A stretch of DNA of 35,401 bases from Bacteroidales bacterium (lineage in GTDB: Bacteria > Bacteroidota > Bacteroidia > Bacteroidales > GCA-2748055), in assembly GCA_029938715.1 (NCBI GenBank), contig JAOZUK010000031.1, forward strand, positions 1 to 35,401. Direction: 5' to 3'. Shown piece by piece: positions 4,976 to 27,763 of the stretch; within the stretch, counting starts at the first letter, position 1, and every line of letters starts with the position of its first letter. The position numbers and the translations under genes were made by a program. A model generated the notes under the pieces. The model was not told the origin of the DNA. It saw only the letters and a program-made list of their open reading frames with translations, and did not search any database.

Positions 4976-7900
4976 TTAATGTATAACCACTAATTCCGTA
5001 TAGACCCTCTTATTGGTATTTATTTTCATCAAATACGTGCCAGCTTCTATACCGGATAGAGGAATAGTCAGAATATGATTTCCTGTAATTAAATTCATAT
5101 CATTTACTCCTTTTCCTACTTCCCGTCCCCTTAAATCGAAAATGGAAATATTTAATTCTGTTGGTTTTTCTACGGTTAAGTCCACAGTAATTTCTGTGTT
5201 AGCAGGGTTTGGATATATTCCAATAGCGTGTTCGAATTTGGTTGCATTTCCAACAGATACGGGTCCGTTTTTATATGTTGCTGCAATAACTGCATCTCCT
5301 GCAGTCGTGGTCAGAGTGGTAAGTGGTGAATTGACATTCGCTATGATAGGCGAACCGGATTCAATGACCCATTTATCAAATAACTGATCCACGGGAGCTG
5401 TGTTAGCTGAGATATAAAAGGTGACTCCCGGAAGGTAGGTTCCACTTCCAGCTCCATTCTTAACTGTAAGTGTATAGGGTTGGATTTCCGTAAAAGTGGC
5501 TGTTACAATGGCTGCGTTTGATGGCATTGTTAAAATAGTAGTGGCTGAGTTAGCATTGGCAATTTCAGGGCTGCCAGAGTTAATTTCCCAGTCATCAAAC
5601 ATCATCCCTTCCGGAGCTGCCTCAGCCGTTATGGTAATCTCTATACCCGAATAGTAATTGCCATCTCCACTACCCTTATAAACGGTCAGCGGATACCTTT
5701 CCCCGGCATTGGGATCGACAATTTCAATGGCATCAATCCGTGTGGTTACAACCCCTGATTTATGGTGGTAAAGGCGAAACCAGTTGATTGCGCTCAAATC
5801 GGGTTCTCCCTCTGTAATGCTTGCTTCGCTAAACTCCAGGCTGATAAAATTCCAGCCCGGTAATAACTCTCCAATGTCCCAGTTATACTCATTTTGATCA
5901 GCCCGTCCTGCGCTTCCTATCTCCACCTGGTTTGATCCAGCCATCTGTGAGGTATCGGAAACATAATACCAGAATTGCAATTTCCCGCTCTCTACTGATG
6001 CTCCTGAATTATAGGGCGTTGAGAATATTTTTTTATACTCATCGGTGGCACTACCGGTGAATTCAATGCATCCCAATCCCTCTTTTTGATCCGTGGTGTT
6101 TAGGCTTATCTGTCCCGATGATCCCCAGTCTTTCAGAAGATCACAATCATCCAGAAAAATACCTAATACTTTATATTGGGCAGTTACCTCTACATTACCA
6201 GCAGACATTTTAAGCAAAGTGTTTTCAGCATTTATGTCTTCGATCAAGGGATCTCCTGAGTCGATTATCCACCCAATAAATTGCTGTGCCGGAGGAGCTT
6301 CATCTGCCGATATATTGATGATTTCATTTTCGATGAAATTGCCATCGCCAGTGCCACTGTTAACGATCAACTCATACTTTGCGGCCCCTGCATTCATATC
6401 AAAAACCTGAATTTCATCAATCCTTGTGGTTACCTCTCCTATTTTGGAATTGGTAATATTGACCCAGTTGATGGCGTTTAACTCTGGCACTCCATGGATG
6501 TTTGCCTCACGAATCTTTAAGGTGACCAGATTCCATCCTGTGGACACACCGGTCAGGGTCCAGCTATACGCATCTGTATCCGGTGTGCCTCCACTGCCTA
6601 TCTGGACCTGAATATCGGTCCCTATAAGTGATGCATCGGACGTATAATACCAGAACTGCAATATGGCATCATAAGCTGCGATCCCTGAATTATATGGATC
6701 AGCAAACACTTTTTGGAATTCAATAGTATCATCTATACCTCCGCTGAACTCAATGCAGTGGGTTCCCTGTTTTTGATCGGTGTTGTTGAGGGTTAAATTG
6801 GCTGAAGGATCCCAATCGGTGAGGGCATCACAATCATCTAAAAAATCCACAGAAGAGCCCACATTAATCAGCCGCATATGAGACAAATCTCCAAACAAAC
6901 CCACACTATCCCTTATCATGCTCCACTGGAACTTATAGACACCTTCATCACCGGGTGCTGTGATATCAAAAGTGAAGGTTTTACTTTCCCCTGGTACTAT
7001 GGTTTCGTCTGTGTTTAAATTAACCTCATCGGTACCCCAGATAGCACTACCCGGCGCAACCGTATACCCAAGCCTGAAATTGTCAGACGATGTCCAATCT
7101 GTGGTTCCTCTATTTTCCATCACAAGGCTGACTGAACTTGTGGCGCCGGGACCCATTACAGTTGGTACCACTTGAGAAGTAAATTCCGCATTATCTGGAA
7201 ATGGAACGATGGGAATGGTGGATGTCAGGTCGATCTCCTGGCGAAGCATCTTGGTGCCCTCACCGGTCAACCGGAGGTACCAGTCGCTTGGCAGTTTATA
7301 GCCATCAATATCGAGGGTGACGAATTGTCCCTTTGTGGGATTCTGGCTGGCATTCTCTGTAGTTTTGAATATGGCAGTCCCTTCATCCACTTCGTCGTAC
7401 ATGGCTATATAGACCATGTTGCAACCTGCATCAATGGCATTAAACATCTGACGCCAGAAGAAGGTGCCTCCATTTCGTTTGATGTGATTGAATTTCTCAC
7501 CCTTGAGGTTCACCCACGAGAATCCGGGAAATATCACAGGGATATAATCAATGTTCATGCTCTGCGCGGTTGCCAGATCAGGTTCTATTTTATCTCTTCG
7601 GAAGATATCTGCACCACTGATGTCACCGTATCTTCCAACGGCCCATGGGCTGATCACATCCAGTTTTTCATACACTCTTTGCCATTCGGGATCTTGCGTC
7701 CGCCAATCATCATTGACCCCTCCTTTTAAGGTGACCAGGTATTTCTCAGGAGCATCCTCTGTAAACCACTGGACCATATCTGCTGCCATGGGGGCTGTGA
7801 GGTTTTCCTTGGTGTTACCAACATTAATTCCCCAGAGTGAAAGTACCGGACGACCATTGTGATGCAGGTAGTTCGGACTCTCCGTTATTTTTAGATCATC

Positions 7901-9315: not shown

Positions 9316-10704
9316 TTAAATTAATTCATATTGTTGAAACTTATTCATCCAGTCCACTACATGTTTATCAAGCCATTTAATACGGAATGGACGGGTCATT
9401 AGTGCATTGGCTGCATTGTCATTAACAAACTGTCTTGCAGCATTATCCCAGTTGAGTTTCCTTCCAAGGGTAACAGCAAAGAGTCCCATCATGGTTAGCA
9501 TGTACACATTGTTTCCCACCTCCAGAGGTTCGAGACTTGGTTTACCGGTTTCTATACTTTTCAGAAAATCAGCTTTATCGGTAAGGGTATCCTTATAAGA
9601 GATATCATTTTCTCCAGGTACGAAATCCAGAATTTTGTCGCTGCTGGCAGAAAGTTTATCCGGATACTCAATCCGAATCCAACCCTCTTTTCCTATAAAC
9701 TTCACATAGGGAACATCAATTAAAAATTTTAATATTAATCCATCGGCATATTCATAGTTAATCTCAAATGCATTAATCGTATTCCACAATCCCTTATCAA
9801 ATGTTCCTGTTCCTTCAACGCTTACAGGTAATTCATACTCTTTCTTCATTCCCCACATGGCAATGTCATTCAAGTGGGCACCCCAGTTGGTAATCATTCC
9901 GTTACAATAATCCGACATGCGCAACCACCCGGGTCTGGAATCGATTCTTTTCGGATCGTGAACCCGTTTTAAGGTATAGGGTGCCTGGAAGGCAGGTCCC
10001 AGCCACATATCGTAATTTAATTCTTCAGGTATGGGCATTGTTTCCTGTGGCCCGATGGCACTTCCGTTAAGTTCTCCGGGAACACCAACCTCCACTTCCA
10101 CCAATTCTCCGATGACACCGTTATGTACCAATTCCACTGCCCGGTTTATTTCCCTTAAGGAACGGAATTCGCTGTCCAGTCGATTGGCAACACCTGCTTT
10201 CTTAACAGCTTCAACAACTGCCGTTCCCCAGGCAGGAGCAACGGTAAAGGCTTTTTCCATACAAACATGCTTGCCGGCTAAAGCTGCGTGAATGGTAACA
10301 GGGGCATGCCAGTGGTCGGTGGTAGAGATCATCACAGCATCCACATCTTTATTGGCTATCAGCCCCCGGTAATCGTCGTATTCCTTTACGCCCTTGTACT
10401 TTTTACCTGCTTTTGAATAGAAGTCATTAATTACTTTTGTGGCATTTTTCATCCGCCATGAATCCACATCGTTGGTGGCAATAACACGATACTTATCAAG
10501 TGTAAGAAAACCGTTGTTCAGATTTGCAAATACCGCTTGACGGCCGGTACCTATCATACCCACATTGATCTGGTTGCTTGGAGCTGTTTTCCCAAATACG
10601 GTTGAGGGAACAACAGTAGGAAGTATCATTGCTCCGGCTACTGTAGCCGATGACTTTTTGATGAAATCCCGTCGGGTAGTTTTTTTAGTTTTCATAGTTT
10701 CCAT
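9316..10704 (-). CDS. Tat-exported Gfo/Idh/MocA family oxidoreductase
   Basis: A 462-residue protein with a twin-arginine signal (TTRRDFIKKSSATVAGAMILP, about 8-28), implying folded export to the periplasm with its cofactor. The Rossmann segment INVGMIGTGRQA (about 45-56), the STTDHWHAP segment and the MEKAF motif (equivalent of the family EKP lysine) mark an NAD(P)-dependent Gfo/Idh/MocA enzyme. Many Tat-type Bacteroidota members carry tightly bound NAD(H) and act on sugars or glycosides. The gene overlaps the end of the UroD-family gene, which implies translational coupling. Two ATG starts are possible, at 10704 and at 10695 (M4); the shorter gives a conventional MKTKKTTRRDF start. The broken isomerase gene follows after 15 nt. 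Substrate unknown; the context suggests oxidation of a sugar or uronic acid. Confidence 0.92.
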   Translation of the reverse strand: METMKTKKTTRRDFIKKSSATVAGAMILPTVVPSTVFGKTAPSNQINVGMIGTGRQAVFANLNNGFLTLDKYRVIATNDVDSWRMKNATKVINDFYSKAGKKYKGVKEYDDYRGLIANKDVDAVMISTTDHWHAPVTIHAALAGKHVCMEKAFTVAPAWGTAVVEAVKKAGVANRLDSEFRSLREINRAVELVHNGVIGELVEVEVGVPGELNGSAIGPQETMPIPEELNYDMWLGPAFQAPYTLKRVHDPKRIDSRPGWLRMSDYCNGMITNWGAHLNDIAMWGMKKEYELPVSVEGTGTFDKGLWNTINAFEINYEYADGLILKFLIDVPYVKFIGKEGWIRIEYPDKLSASSDKILDFVPGENDISYKDTLTDKADFLKSIETGKPSLEPLEVGNNVYMLTMMGLFAVTLGRKLNWDNAARQFVNDNAANALMTRPFRIKWLDKHVVDWMNKFQQYELI

Positions 10705-11848
10705 ATTCTTTTAATGCATCAAGCATCGCCTTTATATTCTGAGGGGGCACTTCGGCCTGAATGTTATGTATGGTGCTGAACACAAATCCACCTCCCGGGG
10801 CAAGCGCTTCAATGTTTCGTTTCACATTATCTTTCACCTGTTCTGGTGTCCCAGATGGCAAAATGTGCTGTGTATCCACACCTCCACCCCAGAAAACAAT
10901 GTCTTTACCAAAATCCTTTTTCAATCGGACTGGTTCCATGCCTGTTGCCGTCACATGAACCGGGTTTAATATATCAACTCCCATTTCAATTAAATCCGGA
11001 ATAATGGGCCGAACATTTCCGCATGAATGGAACAGAATCTTAATTCCTTGCTTTTTTCGTTTTATGAACTCCAATACCCTTGTAAAATGGGGCATATAAT
11101 ACGCTCTGAACTGATCGGGAGCAATTAGCTGCGATTGTTGGGTTCCATAGTCATCGCCCTCACCAACTACATCCACCACATCCCCAATTTCATCGAGTAA
11201 AGCATCCCAGTATTCAATTTTTAAATCGGCCATTTTACCAATGAGTTTATCAGAGTTTAACTCAAACATAAACGGGTCGACCATGGCATTTTCCATCCCT
11301 CGTACACGCTGGTGCATTTCAAAAAGGCCTGCACACAACCCTTTTGTAAATACTGGTTTCTCCCCGTCCCGGTATGCTATCGCTTTTTCCCGTAAACCCA
11401 CAAACCGCTGTTTGTTGGAGGCATTGGGCCAGGGATACTTTTCAATTACATTTTCTTCCAAAAAATCAACATCCTCCATGGGGCTCTTCACCAATGAAAA
11501 CCAATAACCGTCTTTTGGAAAATGATGTGTAAAGCCCCACTCATCGAAATATTCAAAATAGTTACCCCGGTCCTTCAGTTTTGAATAGACATCCCAGTTG
11601 TGACTTGTTAGGGGAAACACCCCACGCACATCCGCATCAAATTCCTGCAGGACTTCTTCTGAAGGGAGAACAATTTGTTGAATCACATCGGTCCAATCTG
11701 GCGGCTCTGAATCTTTCCCTTTGAACTTTAGATAATTCTGATAGGCAGTATTGGTAATTCCTGTCCATGTTGTTGCAGCCAGGTCGTATGGAACATGGTC
11801 GGCCTCCTGGAAGTTTAAGGCTTTTAATACTCTTTCTCTTGAATTCAC
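10685..11848 (-). CDS. UroD/MtaA-superfamily protein (not HemE)
   Basis: A 387-residue cytoplasmic protein beginning NSRERVLKALNFQEADHVPYD, the usual start of the uroporphyrinogen decarboxylase-like superfamily that includes the corrinoid methyltransferases MtaA/CmuA. The zinc-type HxC motif is present in ILFHSCGNV (about 286-294). The distal Cys of MtaA is not evident; STIHNIQAEVPP supplies a His instead. The heme enzyme HemE signature (RQAGRY) is absent, so it is unlikely to make coproporphyrinogen. The start is GTG at 11848; the overlapping ATG at 11850 is followed at once by a stop. It begins 2 nt after the MFS stop and overlaps the oxidoreductase start, so it is embedded in a sugar operon. 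Roles could be methyl transfer from an O-methylated sugar or an unknown lyase or aldolase reaction; neither is proven. Confidence 0.85.
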   Translation of the reverse strand: MNSRERVLKALNFQEADHVPYDLAATTWTGITNTAYQNYLKFKGKDSEPPDWTDVIQQIVLPSEEVLQEFDADVRGVFPLTSHNWDVYSKLKDRGNYFEYFDEWGFTHHFPKDGYWFSLVKSPMEDVDFLEENVIEKYPWPNASNKQRFVGLREKAIAYRDGEKPVFTKGLCAGLFEMHQRVRGMENAMVDPFMFELNSDKLIGKMADLKIEYWDALLDEIGDVVDVVGEGDDYGTQQSQLIAPDQFRAYYMPHFTRVLEFIKRKKQGIKILFHSCGNVRPIIPDLIEMGVDILNPVHVTATGMEPVRLKKDFGKDIVFWGGGVDTQHILPSGTPEQVKDNVKRNIEALAPGGGFVFSTIHNIQAEVPPQNIKAMLDALKEYGNYEN

Positions 11849-11850
11849 AT

Positions 11851-13131
11851 CTATAATTTTGTTACGGGTTTCATTCGGGGAACCAGCACATGAATGATTG
11901 TGATTCCTATTAAGTAACCAAAGGATGCTACTTTAAAAGCAATTTCATATCCACCCTGACTTGACTCACCTAATGCATGGCCCAGCAGTAATGCAGTAAC
12001 CATACCACCTGCAGTACTCACCGTGGTGGCAAATCCGGTTACAGAACCAACTACATTTTTAGGAAACAGATCGGAAATTACAGTAAAAATATTGGCCGAC
12101 CAGGAGCAGTGTGCTGCAGCTGCAAGTGCAATTAAGGCTACACTTATAACCAGTGAGGATTGATGTGGAACGGTCATGACCGGAAGGACTAATATTGCCG
12201 ATCCAAGCATGGTTATTTTACGTGAAAAATTGACCGATTTCCCCTTTTTCATTAAAAAGGAAGATATGGCCCCACCGGTAATTCCTCCCAAATCGGCTAT
12301 GACATAAATGGAGACCAGAGGCAACGCCATCTCTTTTAAATCGATTCCAAATTTTGTGTTTAGAAATTTGGCTCCCCAGAAAAGGTAGAAATACCACACA
12401 GGGTCGGCCATCAGTTTGCCCAGGGAGACAGCCCAGGTTTGGCGATATTTTAATAGTTTAAACCAGCTGATTTTTACTTTTTCCACCTCAGGTTCTCCGT
12501 CTTCAATGAAATCGATTTCAGCCTTATTGGTGAACCTGCTTTCACGTGGTTTCCTATAGAAGATCAACCAAAAGAACAACCAGAAAAAGCCAAGGAAACC
12601 GGACAAAATAAAAACCCATCTCCACGATCCCAGTCCAGCTATAATTAGAGGAATCAGGATTGGAGCAAGAATCGCACCTACGTTGGAACCACCATTAAAT
12701 AATCCGGTAGCAAACGCCCTCTCTTTTTTGGGAAACCATTCGGCTACCGTTTTGATTGCAGCCGGAAAGTTACCAGCTTCGCTTATACCCAGCCCTATTC
12801 TGGCAAGGGCAAATCCAACCCATGTTCGGGCGGTAGCATGAAGCATACTTGCAATGCTCCACAATACTACAGCTATGCCCAATCCCACTCGTGTACCTAC
12901 CCTATCTATAAAATAGCCCATTAACAAAGTACCAATGCCATAGGCAAGCTGAAATGCTGCAATGATGTACCCGTATTCCTGCTCGGTCCAGCCAATCTCA
13001 GTCTCTAGTAGTGGAGCCAGTATCCCCATTAAAAACCGGTCAAAATAGTTTACCGTAGTGGCAAAAAACAGCAAGGCCACAATTGCCCATCTGTAATTTG
13101 TCTTCTTCAATGACGTTTTTTGTTTGCTCAT
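11851..13131 (-). CDS. MFS transporter, hexuronate/anion:cation symporter (ACS) type
   Basis: A 426-residue inner-membrane protein with about 12 hydrophobic segments. The segment VNYFDRFLMGILAP near the N-terminus and the MFS A-like motif GYFIDRVGTR after helix 2 resemble the ACS family (hexuronate ExuT, glucarate GudP and sialate-like carriers). EAGNFPAAIKTVAEWFPKKERA is a strong ACS-type segment. A polar central loop (about residues 195-225) separates the halves. It is the first gene of a tight minus-strand operon with the UroD-family gene, the Tat oxidoreductase and the broken isomerase, and it diverges from the LpxR-like gene across 199 nt. The likely cargo is a sugar acid or similar anion produced by extracellular enzymes; exact specificity cannot be read from sequence. 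Confidence 0.92.
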   Translation of the reverse strand: MSKQKTSLKKTNYRWAIVALLFFATTVNYFDRFLMGILAPLLETEIGWTEQEYGYIIAAFQLAYGIGTLLMGYFIDRVGTRVGLGIAVVLWSIASMLHATARTWVGFALARIGLGISEAGNFPAAIKTVAEWFPKKERAFATGLFNGGSNVGAILAPILIPLIIAGLGSWRWVFILSGFLGFFWLFFWLIFYRKPRESRFTNKAEIDFIEDGEPEVEKVKISWFKLLKYRQTWAVSLGKLMADPVWYFYLFWGAKFLNTKFGIDLKEMALPLVSIYVIADLGGITGGAISSFLMKKGKSVNFSRKITMLGSAILVLPVMTVPHQSSLVISVALIALAAAAHCSWSANIFTVISDLFPKNVVGSVTGFATTVSTAGGMVTALLLGHALGESSQGGYEIAFKVASFGYLIGITIIHVLVPRMKPVTKL

Positions 13132-20851: not shown

Positions 20852-22459
20852 ATGAATAAATTTGAACTCTGTAAATTTTCAGAATTGGAAGACCGCCAAC
20901 CCAGGCATGCTATGGTAGAAGATCTGGATCTGGTCATCATCAGGTATGACAATCACGTATCTGTTCTATATGGTCGCTGCCTCCATCGGGGAGCTTTAAT
21001 GGCAGATGGACATATTGAAGGGGAGAATCTCATATGTGGAGTTCACGGTTGGGATTATCGTTACGATACCGGTGTATCTGAGTATAACAACAAAGAAGTG
21101 CTCCATAAATTTTCCACCCTGGTTGAAGAGGATGTGCTCATTATTGATCTTGATGAAATTCAATCTTTTCTTAAAGAGTATCCCCAACCGTTTAACAGGA
21201 AGAGCTACCTGGGTTCATATGCCGACACCCACCCCGAAGAGACCGAACCCTACACAGGATATATTTCCGAATTGGCTAAGAATGGTCTTAAAAATATAGG
21301 TCACCACGGTTTTACTGAAGCCATGGGGGTGGATCGAAATACGCTTCCCAAATGGGAAGAGATCCAGTTTTTACCGGCCCAATTAGCCAGGCGCCCTCTG
21401 CCTGATCATGTAAATGTCTCCACAAAGGTCGTTATTGGCAAGAACGCACAAAAACCCCTGGAACTAAACATGCCCGTCTTTGTGTCGGACATGAGTTTTG
21501 GGGCTTTATCCAGGGAAGCAAAAATAGCCCTGGCGAAAGGAGCAGAGATGGCGGGCACAGGAATTGCAAGCGGTGAGGGTGGAATGTTGCCTGAAGAACA
21601 GGAGAATAACTCCCGCTATTTTTACGAGCTGGCTTCGGGAAAATTTGGATTCTCCTGGGAGAAGGTTCAAAAAGCCCAGGCATTTCACTTTAAGGGCGGA
21701 CAGGGAGCAAAGACGGGTACGGGTGGGCATCTGCCTGGCAATAAGGTAACAAAAGAGATTGCTGAAGTAAGGGGACTTGAGGAGGGAAGTGCGGCCATCA
21801 GTCCGGCTGCATTTCCTGATTTAATAACACCAAAAGACTTTGCTGATTTTGCCAATAAAGTGCGGGAGAAAACAGGGGGCATTCCGGTTGGATTTAAGAT
21901 TGCGGCATCACATATTGAGCAGGACATTGATTTTGCAATTGAAGCGGGTGCTGATTATATCATCCTCGACGGACGGGGAGGAGGAACGGGAGCCGCGCCT
22001 GCCATTTTAAGGAATAACATCAATGTTCCAACCATTCCAGCCCTGGCCAGAGCCCGAAGGCACCTGGATCAAAAAGGGAAAAAAGAAGTGTCACTTATTA
22101 TCACCGGCGGATTACGTATTGCTGATGATTTTGTAAAAGCTCTGATGTTGGGTGCAGACGCTGTTGCCGTTTCAAACTCTGCCCTTCAGGCCATTGGTTG
22201 TCTGGGAATGCGAGCCTGTAACACCAACAATTGTCCGGTGGGTATTGCCACACAAAAGGAGGAACTCAGGCAGCGAATTATCATTGAAAGCTCAGCCAGA
22301 CAGCTTAGTAATTTTCTAAACGCCACTTCTGAATTGATGCAGGTTGTGGCCAGGTCCTGCGGGTATGGTGATATGAACCAATTTAATCCGGATGATCTGG
22401 TGACCCTTAACCATGACATTCATCTCCTCACCGGAATGGCATACGCCGGGCTCTCTTAA
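20852..22459 (+). CDS. Rieske domain fused to GOGAT-like FMN glutamate synthase
   Basis: A 535-residue cytosolic two-part redox enzyme. Residues about 1-105 are a Rieske [2Fe-2S] ferredoxin-like domain with ligands C43-x-H45 (GRCLHRGA) and C62-x2-H65 (ICGVHGWDY). Residues about 150-535 are the FMN/[3Fe-4S] synthase domain of glutamate synthase: FVSDMSFGALS (210-220), SGEGGM (240-245), FHFKGGQGAKTG (279-290), ILDGRGGGTGAAP (371-383), and the cluster cysteines C450-x5-C456-x4-C461 in CLGMRACNTNNCPVG. The class II glutaminase domain of classical GltB is absent, so ammonia or another amine would have to be supplied. Relatives include archaeal-type glutamate synthases and the MgsC subunit of N-methylglutamate synthase. 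It diverges from the Tricorn-like gene and precedes Gfo/Idh and lysine-dehydrogenase-like genes. The physiological reaction is uncertain. Confidence 0.93.
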   Translation: MNKFELCKFSELEDRQPRHAMVEDLDLVIIRYDNHVSVLYGRCLHRGALMADGHIEGENLICGVHGWDYRYDTGVSEYNNKEVLHKFSTLVEEDVLIIDLDEIQSFLKEYPQPFNRKSYLGSYADTHPEETEPYTGYISELAKNGLKNIGHHGFTEAMGVDRNTLPKWEEIQFLPAQLARRPLPDHVNVSTKVVIGKNAQKPLELNMPVFVSDMSFGALSREAKIALAKGAEMAGTGIASGEGGMLPEEQENNSRYFYELASGKFGFSWEKVQKAQAFHFKGGQGAKTGTGGHLPGNKVTKEIAEVRGLEEGSAAISPAAFPDLITPKDFADFANKVREKTGGIPVGFKIAASHIEQDIDFAIEAGADYIILDGRGGGTGAAPAILRNNINVPTIPALARARRHLDQKGKKEVSLIITGGLRIADDFVKALMLGADAVAVSNSALQAIGCLGMRACNTNNCPVGIATQKEELRQRIIIESSARQLSNFLNATSELMQVVARSCGYGDMNQFNPDDLVTLNHDIHLLTGMAYAGLS

Positions 22460-22489
22460 ATGTACCTCATATCTGCTTTTTCGAATGCA

Positions 22490-22517
22490 TTAAATTCTTA
22501 AATTGCGTAGAATTTAA
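22490..22517. promoter_or_regulatory. Inverted repeat between the Rieske-GOGAT and Gfo/Idh genes
   Basis: TTAAATTC (22490-22497) and GAATTTAA (22510-22517) form a perfect 8-bp inverted repeat with a 12-nt spacer in the 106-nt gap. It is AT-rich and lacks a T tract, so an operator is more likely than a terminator. Significance is uncertain. Confidence 0.3.
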
Positions 22518-22565
22518 ATCAACCGACTATCATATAACCTAAACGACCATTCAAATAAACTTACC

Positions 22566-23870
22566 ATGATCCAAAAACAATCCCGACGTACCTTTATCAG
22601 ACAGACCCTTGTGGGAACAGCAGGTATTGCTGCGCTGCCGCTATTTCAAAGTTTTAAAGCCGGAGCAAATGACACCATCAGAATTGGAATCATCGGGCTC
22701 GGACAGCAAGCCATGAATCTGATGCATGGATTTAGCAGGATTCCCGGAATAGAGATCGTAGCCGGGGCTGATGTGTACGGAATTAAACGGGAACGTTTTC
22801 AGAAGCGGATGAAGGATTTTTACCAGGAAAAAGGAGTAACGGTTGAGGTAAAAACCTACAAGAACTATCAGGAAATACTAGACAGAAAAGATATCGATGC
22901 GGTGGTGATAGCTACGCCTGACCACTGGCATGCACTGATGGCCATTGATGCTTGCGAAGCTGGGAAGGATATTTACCTGGAGAAGCCCCTCACATTTACT
23001 TTGAAGGAGAGTCTGGCGGTGGTGAAAGCCGTTCGGGATAACAATGTGATTCTGGCTGTTGGAAGCCAGCAGAGATCCGACCACAATTTCCAACAGGCGG
23101 TACAATTGGTCAGGAAGAGCGCCATTGGAGAGTTGAAGCATATTGATGCCTATGTGGGGCGGGCTCCACAACCCTACAACTTACCTGAAGAGGTGATTCC
23201 CGCCGACCTGGATTGGAACCAGTGGCTGGGCCCACTTCCATCCCTGCACTATAACTCAAGGTTGAATCCCCCCGTTTCAATTGATCCCCCCTTAAATGAG
23301 AAATACTGGGCCGAATGGCGCTATTTCAAAGAGACCGGAGGAGGCTTTACCTGTGACTGGGGAGCCCATAACTTTGATATCGGGCAATGGGGTCTGGACA
23401 TGGACAGAGGCGGACCCGTAAAGATCATTCCTGCAGGCTATATTGAGACAGATCACCTGACCTATATTTATGAGAACGGGGTGACCATGAGCAACAAGCC
23501 ATGGGATGAAGGAAAACAACGTGGAATTAAATTCTGGGGCGCAGATGGTTGGATAGAGGTTTGGCGTGGGGGAATAAAAGCCTCAGAGAGCTCCCTGCTT
23601 TCTGATGGATCGGATGATAAAAATAAAGGACTGCTCTATGAATCGGGTACCGGACACCTGGATAATTTTGTGGAGTCGGTGCGTGAAAGAAAGGAACCCA
23701 TCGCCAATGTGGAGACAGGACAACGTACCTGTGCCACCTGTATTTTAGGAAATATCGCCACCGAACTGGGAAGACCGGTAAGCTGGAATCCCGAGAAGCA
23801 ATACTTTGTGAATGATCCGGAGGCTGAAGCCCATTATCACAGAGAATACAGGGTGGGGTATAAATTGTAA
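22566..23870 (+). CDS. Gfo/Idh/MocA family oxidoreductase with Tat-type signal
   Basis: A 434-residue protein with a twin-arginine signal (QSRRTFIRQTLVGTAGIAALP, about 5-25), indicating periplasmic location. The Rossmann fold is marked by RIGIIGLGQQA (about 39-49), IATPDHWHALMAI, and the catalytic-type lysine in YLEKPL. CDWGAHNFDIGQWGL near residue 275 is the C-terminal-domain motif of the Bacteroidota exported branch. It is a paralogue, not a copy, of the gene at 9316-10704; the two differ throughout. The lysine-dehydrogenase-like gene follows after 11 nt and is probably co-transcribed. Substrate unknown: family members act on sugars, inositols and glycosides, or as glycosidases using bound NAD. 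A link to amino-acid metabolism would be unusual. Confidence 0.93.
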   Translation: MIQKQSRRTFIRQTLVGTAGIAALPLFQSFKAGANDTIRIGIIGLGQQAMNLMHGFSRIPGIEIVAGADVYGIKRERFQKRMKDFYQEKGVTVEVKTYKNYQEILDRKDIDAVVIATPDHWHALMAIDACEAGKDIYLEKPLTFTLKESLAVVKAVRDNNVILAVGSQQRSDHNFQQAVQLVRKSAIGELKHIDAYVGRAPQPYNLPEEVIPADLDWNQWLGPLPSLHYNSRLNPPVSIDPPLNEKYWAEWRYFKETGGGFTCDWGAHNFDIGQWGLDMDRGGPVKIIPAGYIETDHLTYIYENGVTMSNKPWDEGKQRGIKFWGADGWIEVWRGGIKASESSLLSDGSDDKNKGLLYESGTGHLDNFVESVRERKEPIANVETGQRTCATCILGNIATELGRPVSWNPEKQYFVNDPEAEAHYHREYRVGYKL

Positions 23871-23881
23871 ATTTTATTGAT

Positions 23882-25021
23882 ATGAGTAATGTTATTGTAC
23901 TGGGTGCCGGAATGGTAGGTAGTGCCATGGCCATTGATATGGCAAAAAAACACGAGGTAACCCTGACCGATTTAAGTCAGGATGTCCTGGACAGAGTAAA
24001 GCAGAGATGTGATAATTTATCCATCCAACTGTTGGATGCTACGGATAAGAATAAGCTGCAATCCACCATAAAGAAGTTTAACCTGGTGATCAATGCAGTG
24101 CCTGGTTTTCTGGGTTTTGAAACGTTGAGAGCTATCATCGAGGCTGGAATGAATGTCATTGACATTGCCTTTTTTCCTGAAAACTCACTGGAGCTGGATG
24201 CTCTGGCCAAAGAGCACAACGTTACAGCAATCGTCGACTGTGGGGTGGCCCCCGGAATGGATAATGTGATCCTTGGTTACTACAACGAAATCATGAAACT
24301 TACCAATTTTGAGTGCCTGGTGGGAGGTTTACCAAAAGTTAAGAAGTGGCCATTCTGCTACAAGGCACCCTTCTCTCCCATTGATGTCATTGAGGAGTAT
24401 ACACGTCCAGCCAGGTATGTGGAGAATGGGAAAGAGATCGTCAGGGAGCCTTTAACCGATTGCGAGTATGTGGAGTTTGATAAGGTAGGCACCCTGGAAT
24501 CGTTTAACTCAGATGGATTAAGGTCCATTATCTACACCATGCCCCATATTTCCAATATGAAGGAGAAAACATTGAGGTATCCCGGGCATGTGGAGTATGT
24601 AAGGGTTTTAAAAGAGAGTGGCTTTTTTGATGAGGAGAAAATTGAAGTGGATGGAAAATTGATCTCTCCGCTTGATTTCACCAGCAAGATTCTGTTTAAT
24701 GAATGGAAGCTGGAAGAGACCGAAGAGGAGATTACCGTACTGAGGGTTACTTTGAAAGGAGAAAATGCTGCCGGCCAGAAAGAGGAAGTTGTTTATAGCA
24801 TGCATGATGAATACAATCCCGGGACCGGGACCTCTTCCATGGCACGTACCACTGGTTATACCGCCACTGCAGCAGCCAACCTGTTTCTGGATGGATTGTT
24901 CTCCGAAAAAGGAGTGTTCCCACCCGAGCTGGTTGGAAAATACAAAGTCTGTTTCGATTACTTTTTAAGCTACCTGGAGGATAGAGACATTCATTATGTA
25001 AAGAGTTCCCGGTTGATATAG
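23882..25021 (+). CDS. Lysine 6-dehydrogenase / saccharopine dehydrogenase-like protein
   Basis: A 379-residue NAD(P)-dependent enzyme. The N-terminal Rossmann motif is VIVLGAGMVGSAMA (4-17). DCGVAPGMDN (about 119-128), the Glu-Ser-Phe segment before SDGLRS, RYPGHVEYV, and SSMARTTGYTATAAANL followed by KGVFPPE match the Geobacillus-type L-lysine 6-dehydrogenase as I remember it. The length (about 380) also fits. That enzyme converts lysine to allysine (2-aminoadipate semialdehyde) plus NH3 and NADH. Saccharopine dehydrogenase is a close alternative in the same superfamily. It follows the Gfo/Idh gene by 11 nt and converges with the APC permease gene across 14 nt. A lysine or lysine-derivative catabolic role is suggested by the family and the permease but not proved. 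Confidence 0.82.
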   Translation: MSNVIVLGAGMVGSAMAIDMAKKHEVTLTDLSQDVLDRVKQRCDNLSIQLLDATDKNKLQSTIKKFNLVINAVPGFLGFETLRAIIEAGMNVIDIAFFPENSLELDALAKEHNVTAIVDCGVAPGMDNVILGYYNEIMKLTNFECLVGGLPKVKKWPFCYKAPFSPIDVIEEYTRPARYVENGKEIVREPLTDCEYVEFDKVGTLESFNSDGLRSIIYTMPHISNMKEKTLRYPGHVEYVRVLKESGFFDEEKIEVDGKLISPLDFTSKILFNEWKLEETEEEITVLRVTLKGENAAGQKEEVVYSMHDEYNPGTGTSSMARTTGYTATAAANLFLDGLFSEKGVFPPELVGKYKVCFDYFLSYLEDRDIHYVKSSRLI

Positions 25022-25045
25022 CCGGGAGCCCGGCTCTAACTTTTT
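25020..25045 (+). terminator. Compact intrinsic terminator between convergent genes
   Basis: AGCCGGG (25020-25026) and CCCGGCT (25029-25035) form a GC-rich inverted repeat, effectively a 6-bp stem with a 4-nt loop. On the plus strand it is followed after 5 nt by TTTTT (25041-25045). It overlaps the stop codon of the lysine-dehydrogenase-like gene. No T tract is seen for the opposite direction. Confidence 0.55.
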
Positions 25046-26385
25046 CGTCCGCTGTACCTGAGGTAAACATAGATGGGAACCCCTGCTGTTAACAGGATGG
25101 CTCCCCAGATTAGTACTTCAGATTCCAGTCCGGTAATGGCCCATAGAGAATAGAGAAATGCGGGGATGGAGATAAGTGAGGCTGCTATAAGCCTCTTTCT
25201 GTTGAACTCTCTCTTTTTTCTTAAATAGAGTGCTATTTCGGAAAGGGAGGAGAATAGGTAGGGCAACAGGCAACTGAGGGTGGAGAGCATAATGATAAAC
25301 GAAAACATCTTTACCAAACCCCTGGTAAAGTTTAGGCTCACCAGTGCAGAGGCAAGCACACTGGCTATCACAATTCCAATCACGGGTATACCTTTCCCGG
25401 AGATCTTATTAAAGGCTGGTGGAAATAGTTTATCCCTGGCAGCAGCCATGGGGAGTTGACCCTGAAGCAGGATCCAGCCATTCAAAGCTCCAAAGCAGGC
25501 AATGGCTGCTCCGATGGCGATGAGGACTGAGGCCCAATCTCCCCATATTTTTTGTGCAGCATCAGCAAAGGGAGCTGCTGAATTTTGAAGCTCAGCCGGT
25601 GCCAGGATTCCCATAACCCCTACTGTACTCGAGATGTAGAGCAGGGCTGCAGTTATAATTCCTGCAATGGTAGCCCTGGGAATGGTCTTTGTTGGGTTTT
25701 TTATATTGTCGGATGGAATGGTGGCTGACTCCAGGCCAAGAAATGCCCACAATGCCAATGCAGCAGTGGCAGTAATGGCGTCGAAATTGCTCTCCCCACT
25801 TAAATTGAATGGGGTGAAATGAGCCTTGTTAAAGTAGAAAAATCCAAAGGTTCCAAGAACCAGCAATGGTAGAATTTTAAGCACAGTGGTGATGAGCTGT
25901 ACCATCCCCACCTTTTTGATGCTTTTGGTGTTGATGAAGGTAAAGAGCCAGATGGCGCCAATGGCCACACTTGCTGAAAGGATTTGGTTCTCTTTTAGTG
26001 CAGGTATAAAGAAAGACAGATAACCTACACCAGCTACAGCAATAGCCGCATTTCCCGCCCAGATGGAGATCCAGTAGCCCCAGGCCACCAGGAAACCTGC
26101 AAAATCTCCAAAACCTTCTCTCGAATAGGTATAGGGTCCTCCCGACTGGGTAAACATTTTACTAAGCCTTGAAAAAACGAGAGCAAGAAATATGCTACCA
26201 ACCACCGTATAGATCCAGCCAAAAATAGAGATACCTCCGTACAGGGCCAGGGCAGCCGGTAAGAGAAAGATCCCCGATCCGGTCATATTCCCCACCACCA
26301 GGGAGGTGCTCAGCCAGAAGCCAATTTTTCCTTTATTTTCAGATTTTTTGATTTTCAATGAAATCTTCTCCTTTTTTAACCACAT
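25036..26385 (-). CDS. APC-family amino acid permease
   Basis: A 449-residue inner-membrane transporter with about 12 hydrophobic segments. The helix 1 motif GNMTGSGIFLLPAAL (about 34-48) contains the GSGIF substrate-binding loop typical of APC permeases such as AdiC/PotE. SGGPYTYSREGFGDFAGFLVAWGYW follows in helix 3, and SATIPSDNIKNPTKTIPRA lies in the central region. Such carriers import amino acids or exchange them for amines. The frame opens at ATG 26385, overlapping the MttB-family gene by 47 nt. A TTG at 26358 preceded by AAGGAGA at good spacing gives MKIKKSENKGK and a shorter overlap, and may be the true start. Overlap with the methyltransferase gene implies coupled expression, so the cargo is probably that enzyme's substrate or product. 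Confidence 0.92.
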   Translation of the reverse strand: MWLKKEKISLKIKKSENKGKIGFWLSTSLVVGNMTGSGIFLLPAALALYGGISIFGWIYTVVGSIFLALVFSRLSKMFTQSGGPYTYSREGFGDFAGFLVAWGYWISIWAGNAAIAVAGVGYLSFFIPALKENQILSASVAIGAIWLFTFINTKSIKKVGMVQLITTVLKILPLLVLGTFGFFYFNKAHFTPFNLSGESNFDAITATAALALWAFLGLESATIPSDNIKNPTKTIPRATIAGIITAALLYISSTVGVMGILAPAELQNSAAPFADAAQKIWGDWASVLIAIGAAIACFGALNGWILLQGQLPMAAARDKLFPPAFNKISGKGIPVIGIVIASVLASALVSLNFTRGLVKMFSFIIMLSTLSCLLPYLFSSLSEIALYLRKKREFNRKRLIAASLISIPAFLYSLWAITGLESEVLIWGAILLTAGVPIYVYLRYSGRKS

Positions 26386-27763
26386 CCATGGCCTCTACTG
26401 AAGACCTCATTGCTTTGGCGTAGAGATCTTTTGTGGTTTCAATCAATGCATTGTCTGCCATAGGCATGCCCTGCTCATTCCAGGCGTCCAGGCTCATGGA
26501 GGTCCACAGGGCGTCGGTGTCACTTAATTCATGCAGGGAGCCCAGGGTCTGTTCCGAAGTAAAGAAGTTCCCTCCGGGGCCCACATGATCAATTTCCTTA
26601 AGATTAACGGCCTTATCATTTAGTGAAAAGCCCTTTGCGAATTTCCTTGCCTCCCCTATGATATGGTTGGATAGCACCACAGTGGCGGGCGAGAATGCCA
26701 TGGAATCAAAATTGCCTCCCACGAAGGGAGCACATCCAACTTTACCCAGACAGGAGGTCAGATGATTGAGCCACAAATTTCCCGAAGCCACTAAATCGGC
26801 CCCCCGGCCATTGTTACTCCCGGAGGTACCACAATGGGGAAGTTTATAGAAGTCCATCATTTCGGCGCATGCCAGGTTCAGTAAGTAGGAGGTGGGAGTA
26901 TATTGGCTCCCCATATTTGACATGTTAAAGGCTGCAGGCAGGCTTCCAAGGATTACCTCACTGCCGGCTCGCACCAGCTGACTGAATACCAGTCCGGCCA
27001 GCAATTCTGCATTTAACAGTGCCAGCGATCCTCCCTCGGTTGCAGGAGAGGTGCCTCCAAACATGCTGTAGTTGGAGAACATCAGGGGCAGATGGTGATT
27101 GATAGAGGCAATCATCTTATCGGTGGTGCTCTTATTCAATACCAACGGAGTGATGGGATTCACATAGGGGATGCAAAAGGGACGATTTGAAATATCACCA
27201 TGTAAAAAAGTGAGGAGGTCTAATACCTGATTGATCTTCTGGTCGCCCGAAACCAGTAAAACCAATGGTTTGGTGGTATTGGCATACATGTCAAGCGCCG
27301 AGTATAGGTCCGATGTATCGGGGGATACATCCGAAGGAACTCCAAGAGTGGAAACCATGTCGAAGTTATCCAGCAGTTGGCCCAGTTGCGTGGAGTGTTG
27401 CATGTGTTTCCTGGTAAATAATTCCACCTGATTTGTCTCAATGTCCTGAAACCATGTGTTGGTTACCCCAATTCCAAAATGGGTATGATTGCCCTGATTT
27501 ATACCCAGTTGAAAAGCGTCATTTCCATTTTTGTTAAATACTTCAATGTTGGATGGAGCCAGTTGTATCACCTCATTGATTAATTCGCCACTCAAATAGA
27601 CCATCGCATTTTTCACCTTTACCCCGTCAGACTTTTTAAAAATTCTTAATGCCTCTTTAGATTCCACTTCTATGCCCGTATCCTCAAGAATACGTATGGA
27701 GTAGCGATGGACCTCATTCATATGCTCGGTGGAGAGCAATTGTAGGCTGGGACGGACATTCAT
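26339..27763 (-). CDS. MttB-family (trimethylamine/betaine) methyltransferase, non-pyrrolysine
   Basis: A 474-residue cytosolic protein of the MttB superfamily. PSLQLLSTEHMNEVHRYSIRILEDTGIEVES at the N-terminus and PHCGTSGSNNGRGADLVASGN and CAPFVGGNFDSMAFSPATVVLSNHIIGEARKF near the C-terminal half are characteristic. Archaeal MttB uses pyrrolysine from an in-frame UAG. This frame has no internal stop, so it belongs to the non-Pyl branch, whose characterised members demethylate quaternary amines (glycine betaine MtgB, proline betaine MtpB, carnitine MtcB) and pass the methyl to a corrinoid protein. No corrinoid protein or activating reductase is encoded in this window. Overlap with the APC permease gene suggests an imported methylated amino compound. 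Specificity is inferred only. Confidence 0.9.
   Translation of the reverse strand: MNVRPSLQLLSTEHMNEVHRYSIRILEDTGIEVESKEALRIFKKSDGVKVKNAMVYLSGELINEVIQLAPSNIEVFNKNGNDAFQLGINQGNHTHFGIGVTNTWFQDIETNQVELFTRKHMQHSTQLGQLLDNFDMVSTLGVPSDVSPDTSDLYSALDMYANTTKPLVLLVSGDQKINQVLDLLTFLHGDISNRPFCIPYVNPITPLVLNKSTTDKMIASINHHLPLMFSNYSMFGGTSPATEGGSLALLNAELLAGLVFSQLVRAGSEVILGSLPAAFNMSNMGSQYTPTSYLLNLACAEMMDFYKLPHCGTSGSNNGRGADLVASGNLWLNHLTSCLGKVGCAPFVGGNFDSMAFSPATVVLSNHIIGEARKFAKGFSLNDKAVNLKEIDHVGPGGNFFTSEQTLGSLHELSDTDALWTSMSLDAWNEQGMPMADNALIETTKDLYAKAMRSSVEAMDVVKKGEDFIENQKI

Follow-up and report, generated by a model that had tools for sequence, protein, structure and literature searches.

Proteins of the MttB superfamily act on trimethylamine (TMA), glycine betaine, proline betaine, carnitine, gamma-butyrobetaine and phosphocholine, as listed in PMC12155760, and the roles of Pyl334, Gly110, Met249 and Tyr364 in the MttB of Methanosarcina barkeri are described in PMC9842639. 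Here we analysed a 35,401-nucleotide stretch of Bacteroidales DNA (the window), which is contig C746 (JAOZUK010000031.1) of assembly GCA_029938715.1 (6.2 Mb, 945 contigs, 97% complete and 4.3% contaminated). It carries a gene for an MttB homologue that lies next to genes for an amino-acid permease and an L-lysine-6-dehydrogenase-like protein (LysDH). We propose, with a rough probability of 45%, that the clade of this MttB, or the part of it with lysine-gene neighbours, demethylates an N-methylated lysine, most likely Nε-trimethyl-L-lysine (TML). The genes, their neighbourhoods and the presence of partner proteins in the genome are direct observations. The features at the centre of this proposal are as follows.

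26339-27763, minus strand: MttB-superfamily methyltransferase, non-pyrrolysine, 474 amino acids (PF06253); proposed trimethyllysine (N-methylated lysine):corrinoid methyltransferase
25036-26385, minus strand: APC-family permease, AdiC-like, 449 amino acids (PF13520; nearest PDB match AdiC)
25020-25035, no strand: terminator-like hairpin between the LysDH and permease genes (consensus match only)
23882-25021, plus strand: L-lysine-6-dehydrogenase-like protein (LysDH; Sacchrp_dh), 379 amino acids (PF16653, PF03435; nearest PDB match 3abi)

The MttB, permease and LysDH proteins, together with the Rieske-GltS protein described below, are all full-length family members. The MttB homologue matches PF06253 with 177.6 bits (gathering cut-off 25) over residues 4-472, and its 222.8 bits against TIGR02369, the pyrrolysine TMA methyltransferase family, fall below the cut-off of 525. 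Its reading frame has no internal stop, and in the alignment Ser316 occupies the position of Pyl334; therefore, the label ‘non-pyrrolysine’ given in the original prediction is correct. Gly110 of the M. barkeri protein is kept as Gly97, Met249 is replaced by Tyr232 and, by a hand count on the alignment, Tyr364 by Pro346; Tyr200, Tyr232, Glu301 and His310 are shared by 48 or more of the 51 clade rows. The genome holds a single MttB match. Pyrrolysine in Bacteroidota was considered and rejected, as the TAG in the match from genome G003 is the gene’s own stop (open reading frame (ORF) of 475 amino acids). Stops within some matches to RACo are likewise taken as terminal, as was checked for the RACo of the window’s genome (494 amino acids, stop at the end).

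The permease ORF, as called, overlaps the MttB ORF by 47 nt at the MttB stop, and its gene converges on that of LysDH across a gap of 14 nt, an arrangement that agrees with the original prediction. The permease scores 194.6 bits against PF13520 and 372.3 bits against the arginine/agmatine antiporter AdiC equivalog NF007929, below the cut-off of 574. Of the solved structures it matches AdiC best (309 bits); a cationic amino acid fits this better than a neutral betaine, and an N-methylated lysine substrate is in keeping with it. LysDH matches PF16653 with 166.6 bits and PF03435 with 62.3 bits; it scores 225.8 bits over 368 residues against 3abi (PH1688), with which it has the motif SDGLRS in common, and 77 bits against carboxyspermidine dehydrogenase. 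PMC10413350 identifies 3abi as L-lysine 6-dehydrogenase and describes a His-Glu-Glu triad in carboxyspermidine dehydrogenase. This triad is absent from LysDH, where a hand count aligns H228-E229-E230 of 8deb with Ser-Asp-Gly. Judged by sequence, LysDH is thus predicted to be an L-lysine 6-dehydrogenase rather than a carboxyspermidine dehydrogenase.

Identity to the window MttB sets the clade apart from other MttBs, at 39-76% within it and 20-29% for the rest. Orthologues in named genomes occupy 13 loci, the best being from a Mariniphaga sp. metagenome-assembled genome (MAG). Further clade genes were found in the order of Desulfocicer (25 genes in 23 of 291 genomes), in the Neomarinimicrobiota-type phylum of G418 (15 genes in 14 of 179 genomes) and in the phylum of a Calditrichia MAG (2 of 40 genomes). 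Bacteroidota have few: a search of 395 genomes of the window’s phylum at E 1e-60 added nothing to the clade, one of 393 genomes of its order added G257 and an eroded locus in G156, and 109 genomes of the order of G419 yielded G419 only. In a quick tree without bootstraps (51 members and 4 outgroup rows, with long-branch warnings for the outgroup rows and L159), the window falls in an eight-member sub-clade with support of 100 in the Shimodaira-Hasegawa-like approximate likelihood-ratio test (SH-aLRT). The permease adjoins MttB in seven of these eight members, and LysDH does so in the eighth (L077). A 130-amino-acid piece (L085) and the L102 remnant were excluded from the tree and from the 51-locus set, a further clade fragment exists in G1305, and two pairs of handles that length and gene map showed to be the same contig (L074 and L062; L075 and L058) were each counted once.

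Lysine genes recur beside these MttB genes. A gene no more than 4 kb away was counted as a neighbour if it encoded LysDH or a saccharopine dehydrogenase (SDH) at 37% or higher identity to the references, the SDH reference being from L082 itself. Such neighbours occur at 9 of the 51 loci, in several lineages, compared with 0.24 expected in 349 kb of flank from a Sacchrp_dh_C density of 34 matches in 49.1 Mb; the 12 genomes giving this density belong to the set, carry clade MttB and include the adjacent genes in the count. LysDH is the neighbour in the window, in L062 (G003, same genus) and in the Neomarinimicrobiota-type L077, where it lies about 120 bp upstream of MttB on the same strand. SDH is the neighbour in L082, L084, L144, L148, L149 and L153, with LKR present too except in L149, where the contig ends. 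By group, neighbours occur in 2 of 7 Bacteroidota/Calditrichia, 1 of 15 Neomarinimicrobiota-type and 6 of 29 Desulfobacterota loci. The 37 callable tree rows need at least four state changes, and the Poisson tail is 6e-12 for nine independent cases, 1e-4 for four events and 2e-3 for three. As the window and L082 gave rise to the idea, the loci fetched afterwards provide the cleaner figure: 4 of 37 (L144, L148, L149 and L153) against 0.18 expected, P 4e-5 if independent. These four are all Desulfobacterota and may share one ancestral event, and the 14 new Neomarinimicrobiota-type loci were all neighbour-negative or too short in flank.

Outside the 51-locus set, eroded MttB-permease remnants in G156 (L102, 4775-6887) lie beside an SDH of 446 amino acids, and in L056 (same genus as the window) a remote MttB, 23% identical, closely follows a permease and LysDH (17-nt overlap, then a 22-nt gap). 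All eight genomes with a full-length MttB of the window’s sub-clade have LysDH at 43-100% identity, where G416 was scored through the matching G002 contig (L056) and G003 from a 115-amino-acid end piece. All six named Desulfobacterota genomes (G420-G425) have SDH (at least 54% identity to L082) beside LKR, and MttB adjoins in two. Another MttB-like family is found in the genus of the window at L056 (11917-14917), L060 and L061, where DUF3863/DUF3864-type proteins and carbohydrate-active genes are its partners. In another genus (G025-G027; loci L069, L094 and L095), LysDH occurs without MttB beside a homocysteine S-methyltransferase, a corrinoid protein and a selenouridine synthase-like gene, the neighbours being named from L069 and assigned in L094 and L095 by clustering.

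In the sulfate reducers, genes for pyrrolysine methyltransferases (PylMttB, PylMtbB) also lie at several of the loci.

L082 and L148: gene run MttB, SDH, LKR, PylMttB, PylMtbB
L144: MttB, SDH, LKR and PylMttB, followed by the contig end
L153: MttB, SDH and LKR only
L084 (Desulfocicer vacuolatum DSM 3385): SDH and LKR divergent, with MttB, PylMttB and MtbB on the other side
L083, L139 and L154: PylMttB and MtbB, with no SDH or LKR nearby

PylMttB has a TAG at the Pyl334 position, and the frames remain open beyond it. L148 encodes PylS (both parts), PylB, PylC, PylD and an MttC-type corrinoid protein (239 bits), all above their cut-offs. SDH scores 272-274 bits against saccharopine reductase/AASS and LKR 267 bits against AASS, so that LKR and SDH correspond to the two parts of AASS, a lysine-degrading enzyme. 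Pfam and NCBIfam scans, which covered part of the ORFs of these loci, named no monomethylamine methyltransferase (MtmB), in agreement with a pathway that would end in a primary amine. As enzymes for quaternary, tertiary and secondary amines stand together with enzymes for free lysine, an N-methylated lysine is the simplest common substrate.

The corrinoid protein, which the original prediction placed elsewhere and suggested looking for, along with a RACo-like activator, in the rest of the genome, is indeed encoded on another contig. Two matches to the MttC-like TIGR02370 were found, both below the cut-off of 215.3: a stand-alone protein of 222 amino acids (C869:5723-6256, 173.9 bits), whose two B12-binding Pfam domains are above their own cut-offs, and part of a 1109-amino-acid ORF on C257 (124.2 bits) that is presumably MetH. 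C869 (L055; 8,944 bp) carries the corrinoid protein and RACo (7121-7792, 213.8 bits, over its cut-off) in one run, with genes for a formate channel, formate-tetrahydrofolate (THF) ligase and methyl-THF:corrinoid methyltransferase (277 against a cut-off of 259) on the opposite strand; a MetF-type gene comes next in the equivalent run of two relatives (L067 and L071). This gene set resembles a methyl-to-formate route. Within the family, RACo is present in 22 of 28 genomes and MttB in 8 of 28, which suggests that C869 encodes a route for handling methyl groups in general and that MttB feeds into it. We infer that the window MttB pairs with the C869 corrinoid protein, because it is the only stand-alone corrinoid protein found in the genome. 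A relative of the same genus (G008; L065, 6931-10796) encodes a methanol methyltransferase MtaB (677 bits) that has a corrinoid protein of its own, together with a RACo-like gene. With a corrinoid protein and RACo present and lysine-degradation genes recurring near MttB, neither of the findings named in the original prediction as refuting it (a genome lacking a corrinoid protein, or no co-occurrence of MttB with the dehydrogenase) applies.

For trimethyllysine demethylation, we infer the substrate, the direction and all of the chemistry as follows. The AdiC-like permease of the window would import the cationic amino acid, and MttB would pass one methyl group to the Co(I) of the C869 corrinoid protein, kept active by RACo. 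The methyl-THF:corrinoid methyltransferase would then form methyl-THF, which would either be oxidized in the direction of formate, by way of formate-THF ligase and the formate channel, or go into biosynthesis, and the demethylated product would enter lysine catabolism through LysDH after full demethylation. In some Desulfobacterales, MttB would act on the quaternary, PylMttB on the tertiary and PylMtbB on the secondary amine, with LKR and SDH taking the primary amine. Because the Bacteroidota locus shows only the quaternary step and LysDH, dimethyllysine would be either handled elsewhere or split by LysDH. In the bolder of these alternatives, LysDH would oxidize the C-epsilon-N bond of dimethyllysine to give allysine, dimethylamine and NADH. 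A specific version of this scheme, which we consider rather improbable, has the three methyltransferases of the sulfate reducers strip TML in this order, with the freed lysine passing to the LKR-SDH of the same run, and gives the Bacteroidota a shortened route that ends when LysDH splits dimethyllysine into allysine and dimethylamine. There is a precedent in MtyB, which according to PMC8604678 did not detectably act on the dimethyl compound formed from its substrate, yet was active on the monomethyl compound. Of the import, demethylation, deamination and ammonia reassimilation put forward in the original prediction, the lysine-gene neighbours, the partner proteins and the AdiC-like permease favour the route apart from its last step, which is taken up below.

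Several observations weigh against trimethyllysine as the substrate. The count of nine includes the two seeds of the idea, and of the 42 other loci, 14 have flanks too short to judge and 28 have adequate flanks and no LysDH or SDH (16 Desulfobacterota, 11 Neomarinimicrobiota-type and 1 Bacteroidota). These 28 loci favour a different explanation, in which the clade acts on another quaternary amine of betaine type, the lysine genes are recurrent but functionally loose, and substrates differ among subgroups. The betaine-type and other substrates in PMC12155760 point the same way, as do the varied neighbourhoods, which include ABC transporters (L079, L141 and L147), a homocysteine S-methyltransferase (L078, L138 and L139) and a housekeeping block (L161 and L164-L170). 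However, separate lineages repeat the proximity through two lysine routes (LysDH; LKR with SDH) above the chance estimate, and we consider this explanation possible but tentative. The Neomarinimicrobiota-type operon was set aside as a pathway, since L169 has MttB among genes such as those for RsgA, Dus, an HRDC nuclease, an acyltransferase and an S9 peptidase; by clustering, neighbouring loci share them, and they are uninformative.

Other adverse points concern LysDH itself. It is present in about 126 of the 393 genomes of the window’s order, where it is common without MttB, so that presence in the genome alone is weak evidence; orthologues of 80-86% identity occur in G284, G102, G011 and G143, all without an MttB match; in G257, MttB and LysDH are on different contigs and the MttB-permease pair has no adjoining LysDH; and G426 (2.1 Mb), with a 130-amino-acid clade fragment, has no Sacchrp_dh match. 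LysDH might thus be a chance convergent neighbour of a functionally unrelated MttB-permease pair, as the convergent orientation and the intervening hairpin would also allow, although the hairpin is weak alone, as the region has 13 sites of this type where 7.3 would be expected. The same arrangement in L062 (though from the same genus), the codirectional LysDH and MttB of L077 and the permease-LysDH-MttB order of L056 argue otherwise, and we regard chance as unlikely.

For the sulfate reducers, the SDH-LKR placement might be due to pyrrolysine synthesis from lysine in the same cluster. LKR and SDH could then serve lysine supply or balance, with MttB lying in a general methylamine island: PylS, PylB, PylC and PylD are encoded divergently from MttB in L148, with homologues in L082 and L153, and lysine is the source of pyrrolysine according to PMC8318568. 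We consider this very unlikely, as LKR and SDH match parts of a lysine-degrading enzyme and as the loci of the window’s sub-clade and of the Neomarinimicrobiota type lack PylMttB and MtbB, yet three of them have LysDH. Finally, the C869 module, given the RACo and MttB counts above, would mainly serve methyl donors other than that of MttB, and no dimethyl- or monomethyllysine enzyme was seen at the window locus. Overall, the original observation holds and its interpretation is supported in part; we widen it to an MttB branch linked to lysine, for which TML is the best, if unproven, candidate substrate.

Two further genes precede LysDH in the window and probably lie outside the route.

22566-23870, plus strand: Gfo/Idh/MocA oxidoreductase with a Tat-like leader (PF01408, PF19051)
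20852-22459, plus strand: Rieske and FMN glutamate-synthase-domain protein (Rieske-GltS), 535 amino acids (PF00355, PF01645)

The GOGAT/MgsC-like enzyme of the original prediction corresponds to the Rieske-GltS gene, which is present (PF00355 46.2 bits, PF01645 314.3 bits) but aligns only with approximately residues 853-1211 of GOGAT large chains, that is, the FMN part; there was no glutaminase among the Pfam-scanned window genes. N-methylglutamate synthase is MgsABC, with MgsA and MgsB as partners; none of these partners was named among the 23 Pfam-scanned window ORFs, to which the search was confined. As a relative (47% identity) occurs at just 1 of the 51 other loci (L140) and only the FMN part is matched, reassimilation of ammonia is without specific backing, and we claim no link of this protein to methylamine or ammonia handling. 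The Gfo/Idh/MocA gene is absent from the original prediction; it is flanked by Rieske-GltS and LysDH and lies 11 nt before the latter. Its N-terminus is probably twin-arginine-like, and it was set aside as a route member in view of this leader and of the lack of a labelled counterpart near MttB at the other mapped loci. Elsewhere in the window (9316-13131, minus strand) is a run of an MFS transporter, a UroD-type protein and a Gfo/Idh/MocA protein. The UroD-type protein (10685-11848) has weak MtaA/CmuA-like scores; as G002:C50 (L066) holds a 48% relative that carries fused B12-binding domains, the gene may encode a second corrinoid methyltransferase.

In the open-licence PMC literature, we found no paper joining MttB with trimethyllysine, nor trimethylamine methyltransferase with lysine and saccharopine; trimethyllysine with corrinoid returned only papers whose titles and opening abstract lines were off-topic. 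TML is a carnitine precursor and is present in vegetables, as stated in PMC3890275. If our proposal is true, a cationic amino acid joins the list of MttB substrates, trimethyllysine can be demethylated without oxygen and pyrrolysine enzymes are tied to a substrate beyond simple methylamines; the lysine-linked clade also makes a concrete test possible in a cultured sulfate reducer.

Compared with the pyrrolysine TMA MttB (7xcl/7xcm), the window protein belongs to the same superfamily and keeps the glycine of position 110, and it differs at the positions of Pyl334, Met249 and Tyr364, as detailed above. The predicted LysDH resembles L-lysine 6-dehydrogenase 3abi along the aligned residues, motif included. 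Of the saccharopine pathway, neither LKR nor SDH is labelled at the window locus, which has LysDH instead, whereas both directly follow the clade MttB in L082, L144, L148 and L153. With MtgB, MtpB, MtcB, MtyB and MthB, the window MttB shares a PF06253 domain without pyrrolysine and a transporter beside it, as well as a corrinoid protein, RACo and methyl-THF:corrinoid methyltransferase in the genome. It scores only 123 bits against the glycine betaine enzyme (2qne/9yce), the one of the five compared by sequence, and none of the substrates named for non-pyrrolysine MttBs in the consulted part of PMC12155760 is a methylated lysine. What distinguishes the window and its clade from these five systems is the combination of lysine-gene neighbours and an AdiC-like permease.

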